A stretch of DNA of 64,000 nt from Chitinophagaceae bacterium (GTDB lineage: Bacteria > Bacteroidota > Bacteroidia > Chitinophagales > Chitinophagaceae): NCBI GenBank assembly GCA_003168265.1, contig PMSV01000024.1, forward strand, positions 248,001-312,000, given 5' to 3'. The notes under the pieces were generated by a model. It did no database searches, had not been told where the DNA came from, and worked only from the letters and a program-made list of their open reading frames with translations. Of the stretch, positions 35,748 through 51,981 are shown one piece after another; positions within the stretch are counted from its first letter, which is position 1, and each line of letters begins with the position of its first letter. The translations under genes were made by a program, and so were the position numbers.

Positions 35748-37980
<2,233 letters not shown>

Positions 37981-41653: not shown

Positions 41654-44623
41654 TTAGTGTATTCCCATTGCCTGGTAAATCAATTCCATGATCCCGCCCC
41701 TCACACTCAGCGTGGAGATTTTTGAATTTTCGCTCGTGGGGTTGACCCTGTTGGAGAGAAAAACATAAACAAGATTGTATTTGGGGTCGACCCAAACACA
41801 GGTGCCAGTAAATCCGGTATGCCCAAAAGTCCTGGGAGAAGCCGAAATGCAGGGATAGGGCTCTTTCAGTGATGCATTGTTCCTTTCAGGTTTGTCGAAA
41901 CCCAGACCTCTGCGGCTGATAGCTGTCTGATAATCCGTGAACTCATCAATTGTTTCCTTCTTCAGGAATCTAATTCCATTCATCTCTCCTCCGTTCAGGA
42001 GCAACTGTTCCAGCACGGCAAGGTCATAGGCATCGCTAAACAGGCCGGCATGGCCGGCCACCCCCCCGAATAAAGCAGAACCTGGATCATGCACATCTCC
42101 GCGTATCAATTGTTTGCGGAAAATTTGTTCGTTTTCCGTTGGGGCGATCCGGTTTAGTTGGAATCGGTTTCTTGGCAGGAATCCTGTGGTTTTCATGTCC
42201 AGGGGATCATAAAAGGTTTTTTTGACATAGGCATCCAGGGTCATGCCACTCAGGGATTCCACGATTTTCCCCATGAAAATGAAATCATTGTCGCTATACA
42301 CGTATTTTTTGGCTGTATCGACCGGGCTGCTCAAAATCCGGGAATAGATCGTGTCCAGCCAATCAGTCCGCATATATAAATTCTCGGCGACCCGCACCCG
42401 GTGCAGGCTGTCTGATTTCCAGGAATAAATGGAAAGAATCGGAGCCCCGGCCTTGTTGCTGTCAATGGTTTCCTTGTAAAAGGGAATAAAGGCCTTGAGC
42501 CCTGCCTGATGGAGCATAATATCCCTGATCCTCAGCCCCTCCTTGTTACTCCCCCTGACCCAGGGCAAATAATCTCCTAAGGTCTTCCCCATATCCAGTT
42601 TCCCTTTATCATAGAGTTTCATTACGGCCATGGTGGTCGCGCAGATCTTCGTGACCGATGCCAGGTCATAAATGGTTTCCGGGTAGACCAATTCGCGGTT
42701 ATCATAAGAGAGGTGTCCAAATGCCTTATCATAAACCACATTCCCATCCCTTGCCACCAGGACCACGCAACCGGGAAATGCTTCCTTTGCAATAGCGGCT
42801 TTGCAAACCGAATCGATCAGGGATAGTTTTTCCAGATTAAAATCCTCTGACATGGCAGGCGCAATCGGAAGCAAACCTTTTCCTGCCACAATTCCTTCCC
42901 CTGCTTTTAAATTGGAGTCAATAGTCACTGGCGATCTGCCATGTGGGTTGAATTTTCCGTTGAGCAGGTCTGCTGCCACATCCTGTGTAATATCATCGTC
43001 TTCATAACAGGCAACCAGAGTCCTGTCCTGGCTGAAATTTTTTATGGCATAGGGATTACCAAATACAAAGGTTATGGCCTTAAATTGTTCATGTAATTGT
43101 CCGAGCAGCCAGATGGAAGCGGGACTCAAACCAAACTGGTTGGCCGGGAAACGATGGTAATTATGCAGCCCGACGATAACCGCGTCATAACGGCCCTTCA
43201 TCAATTGTAATAAGGCTGCCGCCTTGCCGCTGTCAAGTGAATAATCGAAAAAGAATTCATGCGCATGATAGTCACGGCTCATTCTTCGGGCAAATTCATT
43301 CTCAGCATTCAACCCAATACCGATATAGGCAACCCTTTTCGCGGGTTCCGCATAGAGGGGAAGCAGCTCCGGTTCGTTCCTGCGTAACACGGTAATGGCC
43401 GCTTCGCTCACCCTTTTGCGCATATCAGCAATATCCTTATTCAGGTCATCTGTGAGGTTGTCCAGTTTGACAGGGGAAAGATTGGCCAGTCCGTATTCGT
43501 ATTTGGCCATCAGCACCCTTTTGACATGGGCATTGATATCTTTCCACTTCAATCTTTTATCCGCCAGCGCTTCTTTGATCTTCATGACAACGGTGTCCAC
43601 ATTTCCAGGAAGACAGAGCATGTCATTTCCCGCAATCAGGGAGAGCACGGCGGCTTCGCCGTTGGGAAAATATTTTGAAACCCCTTTCATTTCCAAAGCG
43701 TCCGTGAATCTAAGCCCGTCATATTTCAATTTCTTCTTCAGCAATTTGGTAACATTCTTATAGGAGAGGGAAGTGGCCAGGTTCGGCGTATTATCTATAG
43801 CGGGAATATAAAGATGGGCGATCATGACGGAGCCCACGCCGGCCTGGAATAAGGCTTTGAAGGGAACTAGTTCGAGAGTATCCATCGCTTTGACACTTTT
43901 GGAAATCAACGGCAGATCAAGATGAGAATCTACGGAGACATCCCCGTGTCCCGGAAAATGTTTGGCGCAGGCCATGACGCCTCCGTCCTGGAGTGCCTTC
44001 ATATATTGCAATGCATTAACAGTCACTGCCTGCTTGTCCTCCCCGAAGGAGCGGTCATTAATAATCGGATTATCAGGGTTGTTATTTATATCTGCTACCG
44101 GAGCATAGTCGACCTGAATGCCCAAACGCCTGCATTGAGCAGCAACTACACGGCCATATTGATAAACCAATTCAGGGTCATGAGCAGCACCAAGCGTCAT
44201 TTGCCTCGGCAGGCCCTGCACGCTGTCCATCCTCATGCCAACCCCATTTTCCGCATCGATGGAGATGATGATCGGGGTCCTGGCAAGGCTCTGGAAATAG
44301 TTGATATATCGAGCCTGTGTAATGGGTCCTCCCTGAAAAAGGCAGATTCCACCGATATCGTATTTTTTGACGGCATCCTCCACATCCTTCTCATAAAAAC
44401 TCACTTTTCGGGTGGCAGGATCGATGGAAGAAAGTCTTACGATGATCAATTGTCCGATTTTTTGCTCGTCGCTCAGGGTTTTGAATGAGCTGTCCACCCA
44501 TTCTTTGGCTGTTAACCGGGTTTGAGATAAGGCCGACCCTTCAAAAAAAAGCAGCATGCCGATAACAAAGGGAAAGACTTTCATTGACATGGTTTTACAC
44601 AAATTAAGAAGTTTACCAGACAA
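41654..44623 (-). CDS. GH3 beta-N-acetylhexosaminidase (NagZ-like) fused to a class C beta-lactamase/serine hydrolase domain
   Basis: 989 aa; NagZ signature CAKHFPGHGDVSVDSHLDLPLI; C-terminal SVTK (SxxK), YSDNDF (YxN) and FGHTGFTG (HxG) motifs. A downstream Met may be the true start. Confidence 0.93.
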   Translation of the reverse strand: MSGKLLNLCKTMSMKVFPFVIGMLLFFEGSALSQTRLTAKEWVDSSFKTLSDEQKIGQLIIVRLSSIDPATRKVSFYEKDVEDAVKKYDIGGICLFQGGPITQARYINYFQSLARTPIIISIDAENGVGMRMDSVQGLPRQMTLGAAHDPELVYQYGRVVAAQCRRLGIQVDYAPVADINNNPDNPIINDRSFGEDKQAVTVNALQYMKALQDGGVMACAKHFPGHGDVSVDSHLDLPLISKSVKAMDTLELVPFKALFQAGVGSVMIAHLYIPAIDNTPNLATSLSYKNVTKLLKKKLKYDGLRFTDALEMKGVSKYFPNGEAAVLSLIAGNDMLCLPGNVDTVVMKIKEALADKRLKWKDINAHVKRVLMAKYEYGLANLSPVKLDNLTDDLNKDIADMRKRVSEAAITVLRRNEPELLPLYAEPAKRVAYIGIGLNAENEFARRMSRDYHAHEFFFDYSLDSGKAAALLQLMKGRYDAVIVGLHNYHRFPANQFGLSPASIWLLGQLHEQFKAITFVFGNPYAIKNFSQDRTLVACYEDDDITQDVAADLLNGKFNPHGRSPVTIDSNLKAGEGIVAGKGLLPIAPAMSEDFNLEKLSLIDSVCKAAIAKEAFPGCVVLVARDGNVVYDKAFGHLSYDNRELVYPETIYDLASVTKICATTMAVMKLYDKGKLDMGKTLGDYLPWVRGSNKEGLRIRDIMLHQAGLKAFIPFYKETIDSNKAGAPILSIYSWKSDSLHRVRVAENLYMRTDWLDTIYSRILSSPVDTAKKYVYSDNDFIFMGKIVESLSGMTLDAYVKKTFYDPLDMKTTGFLPRNRFQLNRIAPTENEQIFRKQLIRGDVHDPGSALFGGVAGHAGLFSDAYDLAVLEQLLLNGGEMNGIRFLKKETIDEFTDYQTAISRRGLGFDKPERNNASLKEPYPCISASPRTFGHTGFTGTCVWVDPKYNLVYVFLSNRVNPTSENSKISTLSVRGGIMELIYQAMGIH

Positions 44624-46519: not shown

Positions 46520-47938
46520 CTACATTTTTTGGAACCTGCTGTTATGGATATTCAGCCCATCATTAATTCGGATATAATAAACCCCTGAAGGCAGTTTTTG
46601 AACCGGGAGGACCAATTGGTTATTCCCCGGCATCCCTCCGTATTTTTTAGAGATCACAAAATTCCCGACAGCATTGTAAACATCAATGGTCACACTGGAA
46701 TAGTTTGTCAAACTAATCACGATATTCAGATGATCAGTCGCCGGGCTTGGATATACCGGAATTTGCATTATCGAATTCGTATTGGGTGGAGAGACGATGA
46801 GATTAGGCGAAACGATATAAAGGTTTTGCCATCCTGAGCTTGCTTGGCATCCCGATTGAGTGATTGTAGTTGCATTTATGGTATAAAAGCCGGTATCCGG
46901 AAATGAATAGATCGGATTGATACCTGTTAGTGTAACAATGTCTGCGGAATCTTTTGGAATGAACGTTGCACTGTTAGCCGCATAACCTTTTACAATACTC
47001 CATTGAACAGAATCCTGGTTGGTAGCACCGGCAACCAAGAGTGTAAAAGCACCCGTTTTCCCGGATATAGGGCTGAAACTGATACTTACAGCGCAACTGT
47101 CCGAATCGTTGGGCCCAGTCGATCCTTCTGGCACAATGAGAGTTAACGTACTTGTTGAAGAGCAGAGTATTCCTAATCCGGATGCTGTTGTTTCTGTCAG
47201 GGTAATTGTATAGGTTCCGGTATCCTCGTAAATATGAGTTGGATTTTCAACGGAGGAAGTCGTGCCATCTCCAAATGACCATAGAAAACTTCCTATTGGT
47301 CCTGTCCCCATATCGGAAAAATTGAACAGATAGGGATTGGCGGTGGAGGGGCTTGCAGTAAAAGCCGCATGTATTGGGCAGGTATCAGCAACAGTAATAC
47401 TAATGCTGTTGCAAATACTGGAACTGCAACCAGAGCTAGTGGTCAAATTTTCACAAACTGAATAGGTTCCCAGCCTTGGAAAAACATAGGTTAAGCTTTG
47501 GCCCTGACCAACCGAAGTGTCATTGACCGTCCAGGTCGCATTCAAAAAATTGGAGCCAACTATTACCGATGCATCTTCGAAAAAATATTCATCTGCCAAG
47601 ACTGAATCCGAAAAACTATTAAAAGCTGCCGAACAGGAGGGAGTAAACTGCAATTGAATGATTTGAGTAACGGTATCCGAACAATAACCGGAATCCGTTA
47701 CTATATGACGTACTGTATAGGTCCCAGGCTGGCTGTAATTATGTGAGGTATAACTGAATTGGCCCGTCGTTCCATCTCCGAAATTCCAGTAGGACTTTCC
47801 GGTCTGGATGCTATCGATCGAATTGAAATATACCAGGCTGTTTTGAATCGTGTATCCAAATGCCGCATTGCAATTTTGCGCTAGCGCTGCATGATGCATC
47901 AGGAAGACCGGAACCAGGATAAGTAAATGTTTTTTCAT
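46520..47938 (-). CDS. Secreted PKD-repeat protein with T9SS type A sorting domain
   Basis: 472 aa; signal peptide; YWNFGDGTTGQFSYTSHNYSQPGTYTV and FLWSFGDGTTSSVENPTHIYEDTGTYTITL PKD signatures; C-terminal IPVYPSPATDHLNIVISLTNYSSVTIDVYNAVGNFV...LPSGVYYIRI. Confidence 0.92.
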   Translation of the reverse strand: MKKHLLILVPVFLMHHAALAQNCNAAFGYTIQNSLVYFNSIDSIQTGKSYWNFGDGTTGQFSYTSHNYSQPGTYTVRHIVTDSGYCSDTVTQIIQLQFTPSCSAAFNSFSDSVLADEYFFEDASVIVGSNFLNATWTVNDTSVGQGQSLTYVFPRLGTYSVCENLTTSSGCSSSICNSISITVADTCPIHAAFTASPSTANPYLFNFSDMGTGPIGSFLWSFGDGTTSSVENPTHIYEDTGTYTITLTETTASGLGILCSSTSTLTLIVPEGSTGPNDSDSCAVSISFSPISGKTGAFTLLVAGATNQDSVQWSIVKGYAANSATFIPKDSADIVTLTGINPIYSFPDTGFYTINATTITQSGCQASSGWQNLYIVSPNLIVSPPNTNSIMQIPVYPSPATDHLNIVISLTNYSSVTIDVYNAVGNFVISKKYGGMPGNNQLVLPVQKLPSGVYYIRINDGLNIHNSRFQKM

Positions 47939-48168: not shown

Positions 48169-49485
48169 CTAATATTTTGCACGCAACATGTCCACATACC
48201 TCGCCATGGCATCTCTAACCGCCGATCCTGAACCATTATAATTGTTGACTAATATTGAAAATAACAAAAGATGCTTATTATCGGTATAGAGGTACCCGCT
48301 TAACGCAGCTACCCCACCCAAACTGCCGGTCTTTGCATAGAGATATCCGCTGTCCTGTTTGTATCGGCTTCCGAGTGTGCCTTCTCCCCCGGTGGCGAGT
48401 AACCTTTTCATACGGTCAATGCCGAACTCATCCTTTAACCGGTTCAATATCCAGATAAAATCCATTGGGGTAAATAGGTCGGACCGGCTCAATCCGCAAC
48501 CGTCGACCCAACTAGGTTTTTGAGGCAATCCTGTGAGATCGGTTTTGAGCAGGGTATCGATGATCCTTTCATCGTTCATCAGGCCAAGCACCCTGTTGCT
48601 GACCATCAGCAGGGTTTGTTCGGCAAAAAAATTATCGCTTCGATGCATCATGGGCCGGTACATGGAGTCGCTGGGTCTTGATTTAATCGAATGATAATTC
48701 GATTCGGGCGGAAAATTCCTGCCTGGTATTATATTAATGGCTAAGGAGTCGCTGAGCAGTTTCATGGCGGTTTCCGCTCCATGGGTTACAAAGGGAACCT
48801 GCACGATCCTTTGCTTTTCTCCGCTGGTTTGAATGCTGAAACGGTTTTCGGATAAATCCCTCCTGACAGTGAAACGTTTTAAGGGTGAATCAATATTCAA
48901 CTGAATATTCCAGTTGGCCTGTGGTTTGGGTAAGACCTGAAGTGTTCCATCATTCAGTCTTGTCTGCTCCCAGGTGACCAGGTTGCCGAATACGGGCAAA
49001 GGACTCCTCTCGGGCATATAGTCATCATTATAATCGTCCCAGCCCCAGCCCCGGCCCAGAGCATTTTCTTTCCAGATCTTGTCAAAGAGATAGATCTTCT
49101 TTTTTACCTGTTTAAGCCAATCGATCACCGGCTGGTCGGTATAATCCGGATGAAGAAGGGTGGGATCGCCAGTAGGATAGAGATAGATCGCTGTATCATC
49201 CTCCTGGTAACGCATTCCTTCCAGGGAATCACCAAGATATTTTAACCCGGCATAGAGCGAAAAGAGTTTGGTGTTACTTGCGGGAGTGAAATATTTGCCG
49301 GCCTGGAATTCTTGCAAGGTTTTATTATCCGTTGCATCATAGACTGATATTCCGATATGGGCCGAGAGAGTGGAAGAATCCCGGAGCAATCCCTCATAGT
49401 CTGGTATGATTGCTTTTTTCTGAACGGAACAGGAAAAGAAAATAATCGGCCAGCCGATCAAGAAAATAAAAATTCGGAAACGCAT
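48169..49485 (-). CDS. D-alanyl-D-alanine carboxypeptidase/endopeptidase (PBP4/S13 family), lipoprotein-like signal
   Basis: ORF 48169-49554; likely start MRFRIFIFLIGWPIIFFSCSVQKK at 49485; motifs SNTK (SxxK), MHRSDNFFAEQ (SxN), YAKTGSLGG (KTG). Confidence 0.93.
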   Translation of the reverse strand: MRFRIFIFLIGWPIIFFSCSVQKKAIIPDYEGLLRDSSTLSAHIGISVYDATDNKTLQEFQAGKYFTPASNTKLFSLYAGLKYLGDSLEGMRYQEDDTAIYLYPTGDPTLLHPDYTDQPVIDWLKQVKKKIYLFDKIWKENALGRGWGWDDYNDDYMPERSPLPVFGNLVTWEQTRLNDGTLQVLPKPQANWNIQLNIDSPLKRFTVRRDLSENRFSIQTSGEKQRIVQVPFVTHGAETAMKLLSDSLAINIIPGRNFPPESNYHSIKSRPSDSMYRPMMHRSDNFFAEQTLLMVSNRVLGLMNDERIIDTLLKTDLTGLPQKPSWVDGCGLSRSDLFTPMDFIWILNRLKDEFGIDRMKRLLATGGEGTLGSRYKQDSGYLYAKTGSLGGVAALSGYLYTDNKHLLLFSILVNNYNGSGSAVRDAMARYVDMLRAKY

Positions 49486-49498
49486 TTGTTTTTTTTTA

Positions 49499-50638
49499 TC
49501 AAACCCTCTCCTGTGCCCGGAGCCAGCGTTCCGGAATCTCATTGCTGCTTGCAAGCAGATAATCCTTGTAGGAGCAGGCGATATAATTCTTGTCAGGCAA
49601 CTGCATCCACCAGCGATTGGTCTTCCTGCTCTTTAAGAAAACGGTTTCTACTTCGGCAAAAGCGGTATGATACTCAGTAAATGAATCCCGGTCATCGAGG
49701 CCTGCTTCCCGCTGTCCCCGGCTCTTTCCGTCGATAAGATACCAGATCATATGACTGATCTGTTTGGCGGTGAGATCCTGAACATCCAGATCGGGTCGGT
49801 AACCATAGATGCCAATGGTATTGACATGGGGACTCAATCCGGCAAAACGCATCAGGGAGCATGCTTCTTCCCCATTGAAGCCATTGGGAGAAAAATGGTT
49901 TGCCGGAGCATAGGCATGGGCGATGGCGCTGATATCTAAACTGAATAAGGAGGCATTGCGGATGACGGGTTCCATTTCCTCGATATTTTCCTTGACGCTG
50001 CCAACACGGAAACAATCGAATCGCAACTTATCCATGGTTTCGAGCATATGAGGATGAACATAAAAGCTTTGGAAACCGATATGACTATAATGCCGCACAT
50101 AATTGGGTTCGCTGGTCAGCATCTCCATCAGGAAAAAATCACTGCGATTCAGTGAATCGATGTCCAGATCGATCCTGGCATCCACTGATACGGCTTCGAT
50201 CACCCTTTTTTTATCGACATAATGCTGGTATTGGGCCAGGGTCAGGTCATGGGAACCCCCTAATACCAGCACGGTCTTGCCCAGATCAGTTAATTCAGAA
50301 ATTACGGTTTTCAAAGCCGCATAGGTATCCTGAACAGTAGCCCCCGTCTTAATATCACCGGCATCTGCTAATTGAATATCCTTATGCCAGTTATAGAGAT
50401 GGTAGAGTTGTTCCCGTATGGCCTGGGGAGCGGTTTTGCCCTTTGTGACATATCCGCCGCCCCTCGTATCCGGGCATCCGACCAGGATAAGGTCCTTTTC
50501 TATTAAATCAGGCAAAATTCCCTCTTCATGAACTTCAATGCTTTTCCCTATCTGGCCGTGTTTGTACAAATCTTTAACCGGTCTGTCCGCCAGTTGCACA
50601 GGTTCCAGAAAATCAATCAGGTTAAATAAATGGCTCAT
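49499..50638 (-). CDS. Arginase/formimidoylglutamase-fold protein with altered metal-site motifs
   Basis: 379 aa; VLGGSHDLTLAQYQHY; AVSVDARIDLDID; SLDISAIAHAYAPANHFSPNGFNGEEACSLMRFAG. Confidence 0.85.
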   Translation of the reverse strand: MSHLFNLIDFLEPVQLADRPVKDLYKHGQIGKSIEVHEEGILPDLIEKDLILVGCPDTRGGGYVTKGKTAPQAIREQLYHLYNWHKDIQLADAGDIKTGATVQDTYAALKTVISELTDLGKTVLVLGGSHDLTLAQYQHYVDKKRVIEAVSVDARIDLDIDSLNRSDFFLMEMLTSEPNYVRHYSHIGFQSFYVHPHMLETMDKLRFDCFRVGSVKENIEEMEPVIRNASLFSLDISAIAHAYAPANHFSPNGFNGEEACSLMRFAGLSPHVNTIGIYGYRPDLDVQDLTAKQISHMIWYLIDGKSRGQREAGLDDRDSFTEYHTAFAEVETVFLKSRKTNRWWMQLPDKNYIACSYKDYLLASSNEIPERWLRAQERV

Positions 50639-50730: not shown

Positions 50731-51981
50731 TTACGGAATGGAAATCCGGAATTCGTGAAAGGGGGATCGGAATGAGTATTGAATGGTCAGGGCATGGTGG
50801 TCGCAGATCTGTTTGACGATGGCAAGGCCAAGCCCGACTCCTTCTGAGCGCTCGCCTTTATGAAAACGCTGGTACAAATATTCGCCGGGAAGCGCTTCAG
50901 GAACTCCGGTATTGGCAATCCTGAATTGCCCTTCCCTGAGAGATATAATGATCCTTCCATCTTTTTTGTTATGACGGACTGCATTGCCGATAAGGTTATT
51001 CAAAAGGGTGTCGGCCAGATAATGATTCATCCGGATAGGAATCTCTTCCAGTTCAGTTTCGAATTCCACTCCCTGGGCGGCAGCCAGTTCTTCGAATTGC
51101 AATAATTTTTCCCTGACCAGTTGGTCCAATGGAAAGATTTCAGTTTTGCTGAATTGGTTGTTCTCGATCTTGGTTAAGAGTAAAAGGGATTGATTCAGTT
51201 TGGTCATCCTGGCCAGGGCCTGGTACATGGCCTGCACCTGCCTGGTCTGCGATTCATTCAGTCCGGGTTCCTGGATCATCAGGTCCAGTTTGGATCTGAG
51301 AATGGCGAGAGGGGTTTGCATTTCGTGGGAAGCATTGTCTGCAAATTGTTTCAGGTTTTCGTAATCTCTTAAAATGCGTTTCTGCATGGATCCGGTTACA
51401 AGGTTCAGTTCATCAAATTCGTCAGTTCCGGTCTTATGATCCTGTATATTTTCTTTGTTAGAGAGATTAAAAGCCTTGATATTCTCAAGTGTCCGGTAAA
51501 ATGGCTCCCACAGTCTTCGCAATAGAAGCCGGTTGGACAAATACAGGAACAGAAGCAGAAGGATAATTACGATTACCGTGATCAGGACGATAAGAAAGAC
51601 CAGTTCTCTCATCTCGTCTTCTGATTTCGTCACAGAAGCCCGAAAGAATTTACTGCCAGTGCTTATTGGGAAGGACAGCTCTCTGAAAACCTTTGTTTCA
51701 CCATGTTCCCGGTCCCTGGATCTAAAATCCCTGTACTCCCTGGGAACCGGTTCGGCCACTTCTTCAAAGGCGGTATGCTGGTCCCGGTAATTGGTGGCTT
51801 CGGGCAGTTTACCATGATCCTTTACAAAGCTGATGATTTCTGCCTCCTCGACATTAAGGGTATTTTCCAATTGATGTATGAGTACATAGCGGAGGATGAA
51901 ATAATAAAGGATGCTGGCCATGACCAGAACAATGATGGCGGCTATTGAATTGATGCGGCTATAGCGAGTCAATAATTTCAT
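50731..51981 (-). CDS. Sensor histidine kinase
   Basis: 416 aa; two TM segments; FADNASHEMQTPLAILRSKLDLM H-box; NNLIGNAVRHNKKDGRI N-box; GVGLGLAIVKQICDHH. Confidence 0.95.
   Translation of the reverse strand: MKLLTRYSRINSIAAIIVLVMASILYYFILRYVLIHQLENTLNVEEAEIISFVKDHGKLPEATNYRDQHTAFEEVAEPVPREYRDFRSRDREHGETKVFRELSFPISTGSKFFRASVTKSEDEMRELVFLIVLITVIVIILLLLFLYLSNRLLLRRLWEPFYRTLENIKAFNLSNKENIQDHKTGTDEFDELNLVTGSMQKRILRDYENLKQFADNASHEMQTPLAILRSKLDLMIQEPGLNESQTRQVQAMYQALARMTKLNQSLLLLTKIENNQFSKTEIFPLDQLVREKLLQFEELAAAQGVEFETELEEIPIRMNHYLADTLLNNLIGNAVRHNKKDGRIIISLREGQFRIANTGVPEALPGEYLYQRFHKGERSEGVGLGLAIVKQICDHHALTIQYSFRSPFHEFRISIP

Follow-up and report, generated by a model that had tools for sequence, protein, structure and literature searches.

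A predicted arginase-fold pseudoenzyme family with an additional C-terminal domain, carried in single copy across class Bacteroidia

The window analysed here, a 64,000-nucleotide stretch of the genome of a Chitinophagaceae bacterium, carries on its reverse strand a gene for an arginase-fold protein, which we call the pseudo-arginase, flanked by genes for a PBP4-like carboxypeptidase and a PorY-family sensor histidine kinase. These features are given below by window position, with residue numbers of the pseudo-arginase in brackets.

48172..49485, minus strand: downstream neighbour, PBP4-like D-Ala-D-Ala carboxypeptidase (TIGR00666, 1.8e-21, 76 bits, below the cut-off of 108)
49499..50638, minus strand: pseudo-arginase gene, 379 aa, ATG start, TGA stop
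49502..49723, minus strand: C-terminal extension (306-379), a b4-a2 domain with invariant Phe334, Trp343 and Cys355
49784..49813, minus strand: GIYGYRPDLD (276-285), with G279 at the arginase Glu277 column
49904..49942, minus strand: SLDISAIAHAYAP (233-245), with S237 in place of the Mn_B Asp and D235 kept
49958..49972, minus strand: EPVIR (223-227), with Glu223 and Arg227 invariant in 153/153 clade members
50162..50185, minus strand: VDARIDLD (152-159), with R155 in place of the Mn_B His and D153 and D157 kept
50246..50260, minus strand: GGSHD (127-131), the Mn_A His130 column followed by Asp131
50734..51981, minus strand: upstream neighbour, PorY-family sensor histidine kinase (NF052314, 437.6 bits, cut-off 350)

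The likely ATG start of the PBP4-like gene lies 13 bp past the pseudo-arginase gene, and a PBP4-like gene is the next gene in 44 of the 78 loci of the window's family. The PorY-family kinase is found directly upstream in only 4 of these 78 loci; with an OmpR-type response regulator it may form a PorXY-like pair.

The window protein matched the Pfam Arginase family PF00491 (2.7e-20 over residues 49-301), placing it in the superfamily, and an AlphaFold2 model built from an alignment of 73 sequences reached a pLDDT of 92.3 and a pTM of 0.92. The model has the arginase fold: its top PDB match in Foldseek was the Bacillus subtilis formimidoylglutamase 3m1r (E 3.7e-17), its best solved structural matches were formimidoylglutamases and metformin hydrolases, and giant-virus arginases were the top matches in a fold search of a viral library.

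Relatives were drawn from genome contigs and from whole-genome sets at the level of order, class and phylum, and the 153 aligned clade members comprise 76 close rows (the window's family) and 77 distant rows. The pseudo-arginase profile matched 276 of 295 sampled Bacteroidia genomes, including 240 of the 253 good ones, and 93 of the 94 good genomes of the order gave a hit in a protein search. The family is present in single copy per genome in class Bacteroidia, and a search for plasmid carriage found none. In a maximum-likelihood tree the clade is separated from the canonical members by a branch that is 1.33 changes per column long and has an SH-aLRT support of 100. Matches in the phylum beyond the class were weak, and the ten that were read all grouped with the canonical members and kept the Mn_B pair. 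The pseudo-arginase is orthologous across class Bacteroidia.

An alignment of the window protein to 21 canonical ureohydrolases of its own phylum puts the six ligand positions at H130, D153, R155, D157, D235 and S237. An earlier note on this DNA had read R155 and S237 as replacements of the His and Asp that bind Mn_B, and its mapping is borne out, these columns being His and Asp in 21/21 canonical sequences. The codons that it gave for Arg (AGG) and Ser (AGC) were likewise found on the reverse strand, where H130 is encoded by CAT, D153, D157 and D235 by GAT, and S233 by AGT. No nearby His or Asp in the alignment restores Mn_B. The binuclear site of two His and four Asp is interrupted at two of its six positions, and the Mn_B pair occurs in 0/153 clade members, compared with 21/21 canonical ones. 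The R155 column is occupied across the clade by R, L, K, T, Y and other residues, and the S237 column mostly by S, A, G or N. Two further features, G279 and the C-terminal extension, were missing from the earlier note. Arginase Glu277 contacts the guanidinium group of the substrate (PMC9224512), and the corresponding position 279 is Gly in 76/76 close members, Glu in 53/77 distant members and Glu in 21/21 canonical members.

The same note had described the Mn_A set as retained, which holds for the window protein and for 63 of 76 close rows, all reading HDDD, but for only 23 of 77 distant rows. Residue 130 is His in 71 of the 76 close members; of the 77 distant ones, 23 have His and 41 Gln, and in 36/77 the change of the Mn_A His to Gln is the sole one. 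At least eight distant members have lost two or more Mn_A ligands. The neighbouring residue 131 is Asp in 148/153 clade members. The four Mn_A columns read N-S-S-N in loci L154 and L156 and P-T-P-T in L176, and in L154, L156, L170 and L174-L176 most of the Mn_A set is gone and the other invariant residues are kept, the alignment of the most divergent rows being less sure because these lie on long branches of the tree. Since most distant rows lack the full Mn_A set, selection has not preserved a mononuclear Mn_A enzyme throughout the clade.

Changes at individual positions were counted on a tree of 88 clade members. Sites 155 and 237 proved to be among the most variable, with at least 52 and at least 29 changes, respectively, and the proposal that R155 and S237 are signature residues of a repurposed site was rejected. 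The earlier idea of a conserved repurposed clade is supported: the family is class-wide, single-copy and devoid of the Mn_B pair. R and S, however, are not its invariant residues. Site 130, scored as intact or not, changed at least 11 times and site 279 at least 14 times. By comparison, no change was counted at residues 92, 190, 223, 227, 299, 334, 343 and 355, which are Asp92, Gln190, Glu223, Arg227, Trp299, Phe334, Trp343 and Cys355. Arg227 is not common to the canonical members, and L154, L156 and L176, which have lost the metal set, keep all eight invariant residues. This drift of the ligand columns while eight other residues stay fixed argues that selection acts outside the metal site. 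With its catalytic residues lost and its fold kept under selection, as judged from sequence and model, the clade appears to be a pseudoenzyme family of long standing, under selection for a role outside the metal site. D153 and D235 nevertheless persist in 150/153 (98 percent) and 145/153 (95 percent) of the clade members, and almost all members have H, Q or N at position 130. This pattern is more conservative than free decay, and the old pocket may therefore still bind some ligand or metal.

The C-terminal extension of the window protein is about 74 residues long; clade members have 61-88 residues past position 305, compared with 0-8 in canonical members. Along it lie Phe334, Lys-Ser, Arg-Trp-Trp and Cys355. 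A 76-residue fragment modelled alone gave four strands and two helices with a pLDDT of 88.5. Identification with a known domain was rejected, as neither the Pfam families nor the PDB sequences gave a match and the best Foldseek match had an E-value of 0.65. The domain occurs once per genome, always within the pseudo-arginase open reading frame, and a phylum-wide search listed no match outside the class.

The gene neighbourhoods of distant relatives differ from that of the window. The gene order seen most often in the 78 distant loci is topA, pseudo-arginase, porP, gldK, gldL, gldM, gldN. The pseudo-arginase lies just ahead of porP or gldK of the gldKLMN operon in 31 of them and by gldJ-porP and porU, in some cases with porV, in 7 more, and linkage to core genes of the type IX secretion system (T9SS) amounts to 39/78. 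Representative neighbours scored above the NCBIfam cut-offs for PorP, GldK, GldL, GldM, GldN, PorU and PorV, and the GldJ model was also matched. T9SS linkage in the window's own family consists only of a shallow PorY-family neighbour; the gene is linked to topA in roughly half of the distant loci and not in the window. Intergenic gaps, calculated with starts estimated as the first ATG, had a median of 17 nt between topA and the pseudo-arginase (37 loci), 139 nt from the pseudo-arginase to porP, 106 from porP to gldK, 61 from gldK to gldL, 50 from gldL to gldM and 24 from gldM to gldN. Given a gap of 17 nt to topA against 139 nt to porP, the tight genomic partner in the distant relatives is topA, with the T9SS operon adjoining it. 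A block of secG, an unnamed gene, an lptE-like gene, a sigma54 regulator gene and miaB facing topA, pseudo-arginase, porP and gldKLMN is conserved in L218, L191 and some 30 further distant loci and is found in many families of the class; apart from topA, porP and gld, its genes were named by eye.

Co-occurrence with the T9SS was scored against SprA in the 253 good genomes, of which 237 had both proteins, 5 neither, 3 the pseudo-arginase only and 8 SprA only (Fisher 8e-6, with no correction for descent). The agreement breaks down in both directions. Within one genus of 41 genomes the pseudo-arginase is present in 41/41 and SprA in 11/41, and one genome that lacks SprA (G530) also lacks GldM; conversely, six genomes (G190, G561, G399, G454, G480 and G504) have SprA and GldM and no pseudo-arginase. 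Such discordance both ways indicates that the pseudo-arginase is not a strict part of the T9SS, and the reading as a strict component was rejected on the 41/41 against 11/41 of this genus. The loss of the T9SS within one genus, that of G530, represents a natural experiment for T9SS-dependent genes in general. Another genome, G002, keeps GldM without SprA.

Taken together, we consider it probable, if well short of certain, that the pseudo-arginase is a cytoplasmic arginase-fold pseudoenzyme that has lost Mn_B and catalysis, gained a C-terminal domain, and acts by binding, a binding or scaffold role being the most likely function. We infer the lack of hydrolysis and the binding role, as well as the cytoplasmic location, the last from a sequence in which no signal peptide was seen by eye. 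An ancestor would have lost Mn_B early, and ureohydrolase catalysis with it, and would have gained the C-terminal b4-a2 domain. The remaining active site would then have eroded lineage by lineage as another surface was held fixed. The dead arginase core may serve as a platform, with an interface formed by the 223-227 helix together with the C-terminal domain, and the binding surface could include the Glu223/Arg227 helix, Gln190, Trp299 and the C-terminal domain, in the role of scaffold or regulator. Candidate partners would be TopA first, from the gene spacing, and the T9SS motor second, from the neighbourhood. It is conceivable, albeit a speculation to which we give little credence, that the dead arginase with its new C-terminal domain, as a near-universal core protein of Bacteroidia, regulates DNA topoisomerase I, the product of its frequent operon neighbour topA, and couples it to envelope secretion.

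Some of the same evidence could be read differently. An accessory or regulatory role in the T9SS would account for the 31 of 78 distant loci just ahead of porP/gldK and the 7 more by gldJ-porP or porU/porV, for a correlation with SprA in which 11 of 253 genomes are discordant, and for the PorY-family kinase next to the gene in the window; we regard it as unlikely, although deserving of some weight, given the 41/41 against 11/41 in one genus, the six genomes with SprA and GldM that lack the gene, and a gap to porP of 139 nt compared with 17 nt to topA. The earlier note had predicted a mononuclear or non-hydrolytic protein; on one such reading it is an enzyme that uses Mn_A or another metal in a weak or altered hydrolase chemistry. 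His130, Asp153, Asp157 and Asp235 of the window protein, and the same set in 63/76 close rows, are consistent with this, and the PDB lists an N114H variant of the Trypanosoma cruzi formiminoglutamase with Mn, which shows that the fold can accommodate an unusual ligand. The full set is found in only 23/77 distant orthologues, however, L154, L156, L170 and L174-L176 have lost the greater part of it with the other invariant residues intact, and the Glu277 column is Gly in the window's family, all of which makes this reading rather improbable. An enzyme that needs no metal and has a new active site composed of Cys355, Glu223, Arg227, Gln190 and Trp343/344 would explain why charged and thiol residues are invariant over 153 members, and a single invariant Cys would be unusual in a pure scaffold; but known families with such a site number none, and we think this explanation quite doubtful.

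Two further readings concern canonical ureohydrolases. The pseudo-arginase could be a working formimidoylglutamase or arginase, as its nearest solved structure is the B. subtilis formimidoylglutamase, but the Mn_B pair, the Glu at the Glu277 column and the H-S-G-x-x-x-R stretch of canonical HutG-like rows are all absent, and it scored 77.3 bits with the NCBIfam hutG model TIGR01227, for which the cut-off is 229. A canonical paralogue in the same genome also fell below this cut-off (54.8 bits), and the score alone is weak as a criterion. This paralogue (L002:1453-2565, on contig G000:C24) is the genome's second PF00491 protein, a ligand-complete, HutG-like and divergent formimidoylglutamase candidate that has all six ligands and adjoins formiminotransferase-cyclodeaminase, in agreement with the earlier statement that the window protein is not a standard HutG. 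A check for hut-gene linkage found no hut gene beside the pseudo-arginase, and the hutH matches lay on contigs C17 and C3. The pseudo-arginase is probably not a formimidoylglutamase, and any working arginase or formimidoylglutamase activity strikes us as exceedingly improbable. It might instead be a pseudo-subunit that activates a canonical ureohydrolase, for which the MetCaCb pair provides a precedent (PMC11271267) and the paralogue L002 a candidate partner in its own genome. This is very improbable, as a canonical neighbour was not seen in the loci read and the pseudo-arginase is the single PF00491 match in several near-complete genomes (among them G215, G227, G238, G251, G260 and G292). Because these genomes carry the pseudo-arginase as their only PF00491 protein, it does not depend on a canonical member, and the stronger proposal of an obligatory partner of the canonical paralogue was rejected.

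Among known systems, HutG (TIGR01227; PDB 3m1r, 1xfk) is the nearest solved relative of the pseudo-arginase by sequence and fold, sharing the fold over residues ~45-305 and the GG-x-H, DAxxD-like and SxD motifs. In contrast to HutG, the pseudo-arginase is without the Mn_B pair, HSGxxxR and, in the window protein, the Glu277 equivalent, has an extra C-terminal domain, and scores low with the hutG model. We take the T. cruzi formiminoglutamase (4mxr, 4myn), going by its PDB title, to have one His ligand replaced, by Asn114. It resembles the pseudo-arginase in this replacement of a His ligand; unlike the pseudo-arginase, its second site works, and two Mn are listed for 4mxr. The precedent for a binding pseudo-arginase is MetCb / MfmB, the pseudo-subunit of metformin hydrolase (PMC11271267; 8x3g, 8snf). 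Both it and the pseudo-arginase have an arginase fold without a metal centre, kept as a binding protein, but MetCb shares a gene cluster with the active subunit that it pairs with and has a different C-terminal element, whereas the pseudo-arginase is class-wide, single-copy and unpaired. The Trypanosoma brucei arginase-like protein TbARG, as cited in PMC11271267, is without a Mn cluster. As far as that citation describes it, TbARG is, like the pseudo-arginase, a natural arginase fold without the binuclear cluster. It is eukaryotic, belongs to the arginase lineage and is not known to carry the C-terminal domain of the pseudo-arginase.

Pseudo-arginases were already known; new here is a family that spans the class in single copy and has an as yet undescribed C-terminal domain. 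The literature searched contained no paper linking this family to a function, absence there not being proof, and no relevant work was found that connects arginase or formimidoylglutamase to the T9SS, gldK or gliding. As a single-copy gene of nearly the whole class that is easily filed as a metabolic enzyme, the pseudo-arginase would be misread in metabolic models. Its history of metal loss over many lineages presents a clear case of the passage from an enzyme fold to a probable non-enzyme, and the newly selected residues, now named, are open to point mutation.

Three other genes of the window were noted. A family 3 glycoside hydrolase of the beta-N-acetylhexosaminidase type, fused to a beta-lactamase/PBP4B domain (41657-44590, minus strand), lies near the PBP4-like gene, and the two may belong to a cell-wall recycling group. 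A PKD-domain protein (46523-47938, minus strand) carries a T9SS C-terminal sorting domain (PF18962), and the gliding-associated ABC ATPase GldA (35748-36671, plus strand; 430.6 bits, above the cut-off) is encoded next to enolase.
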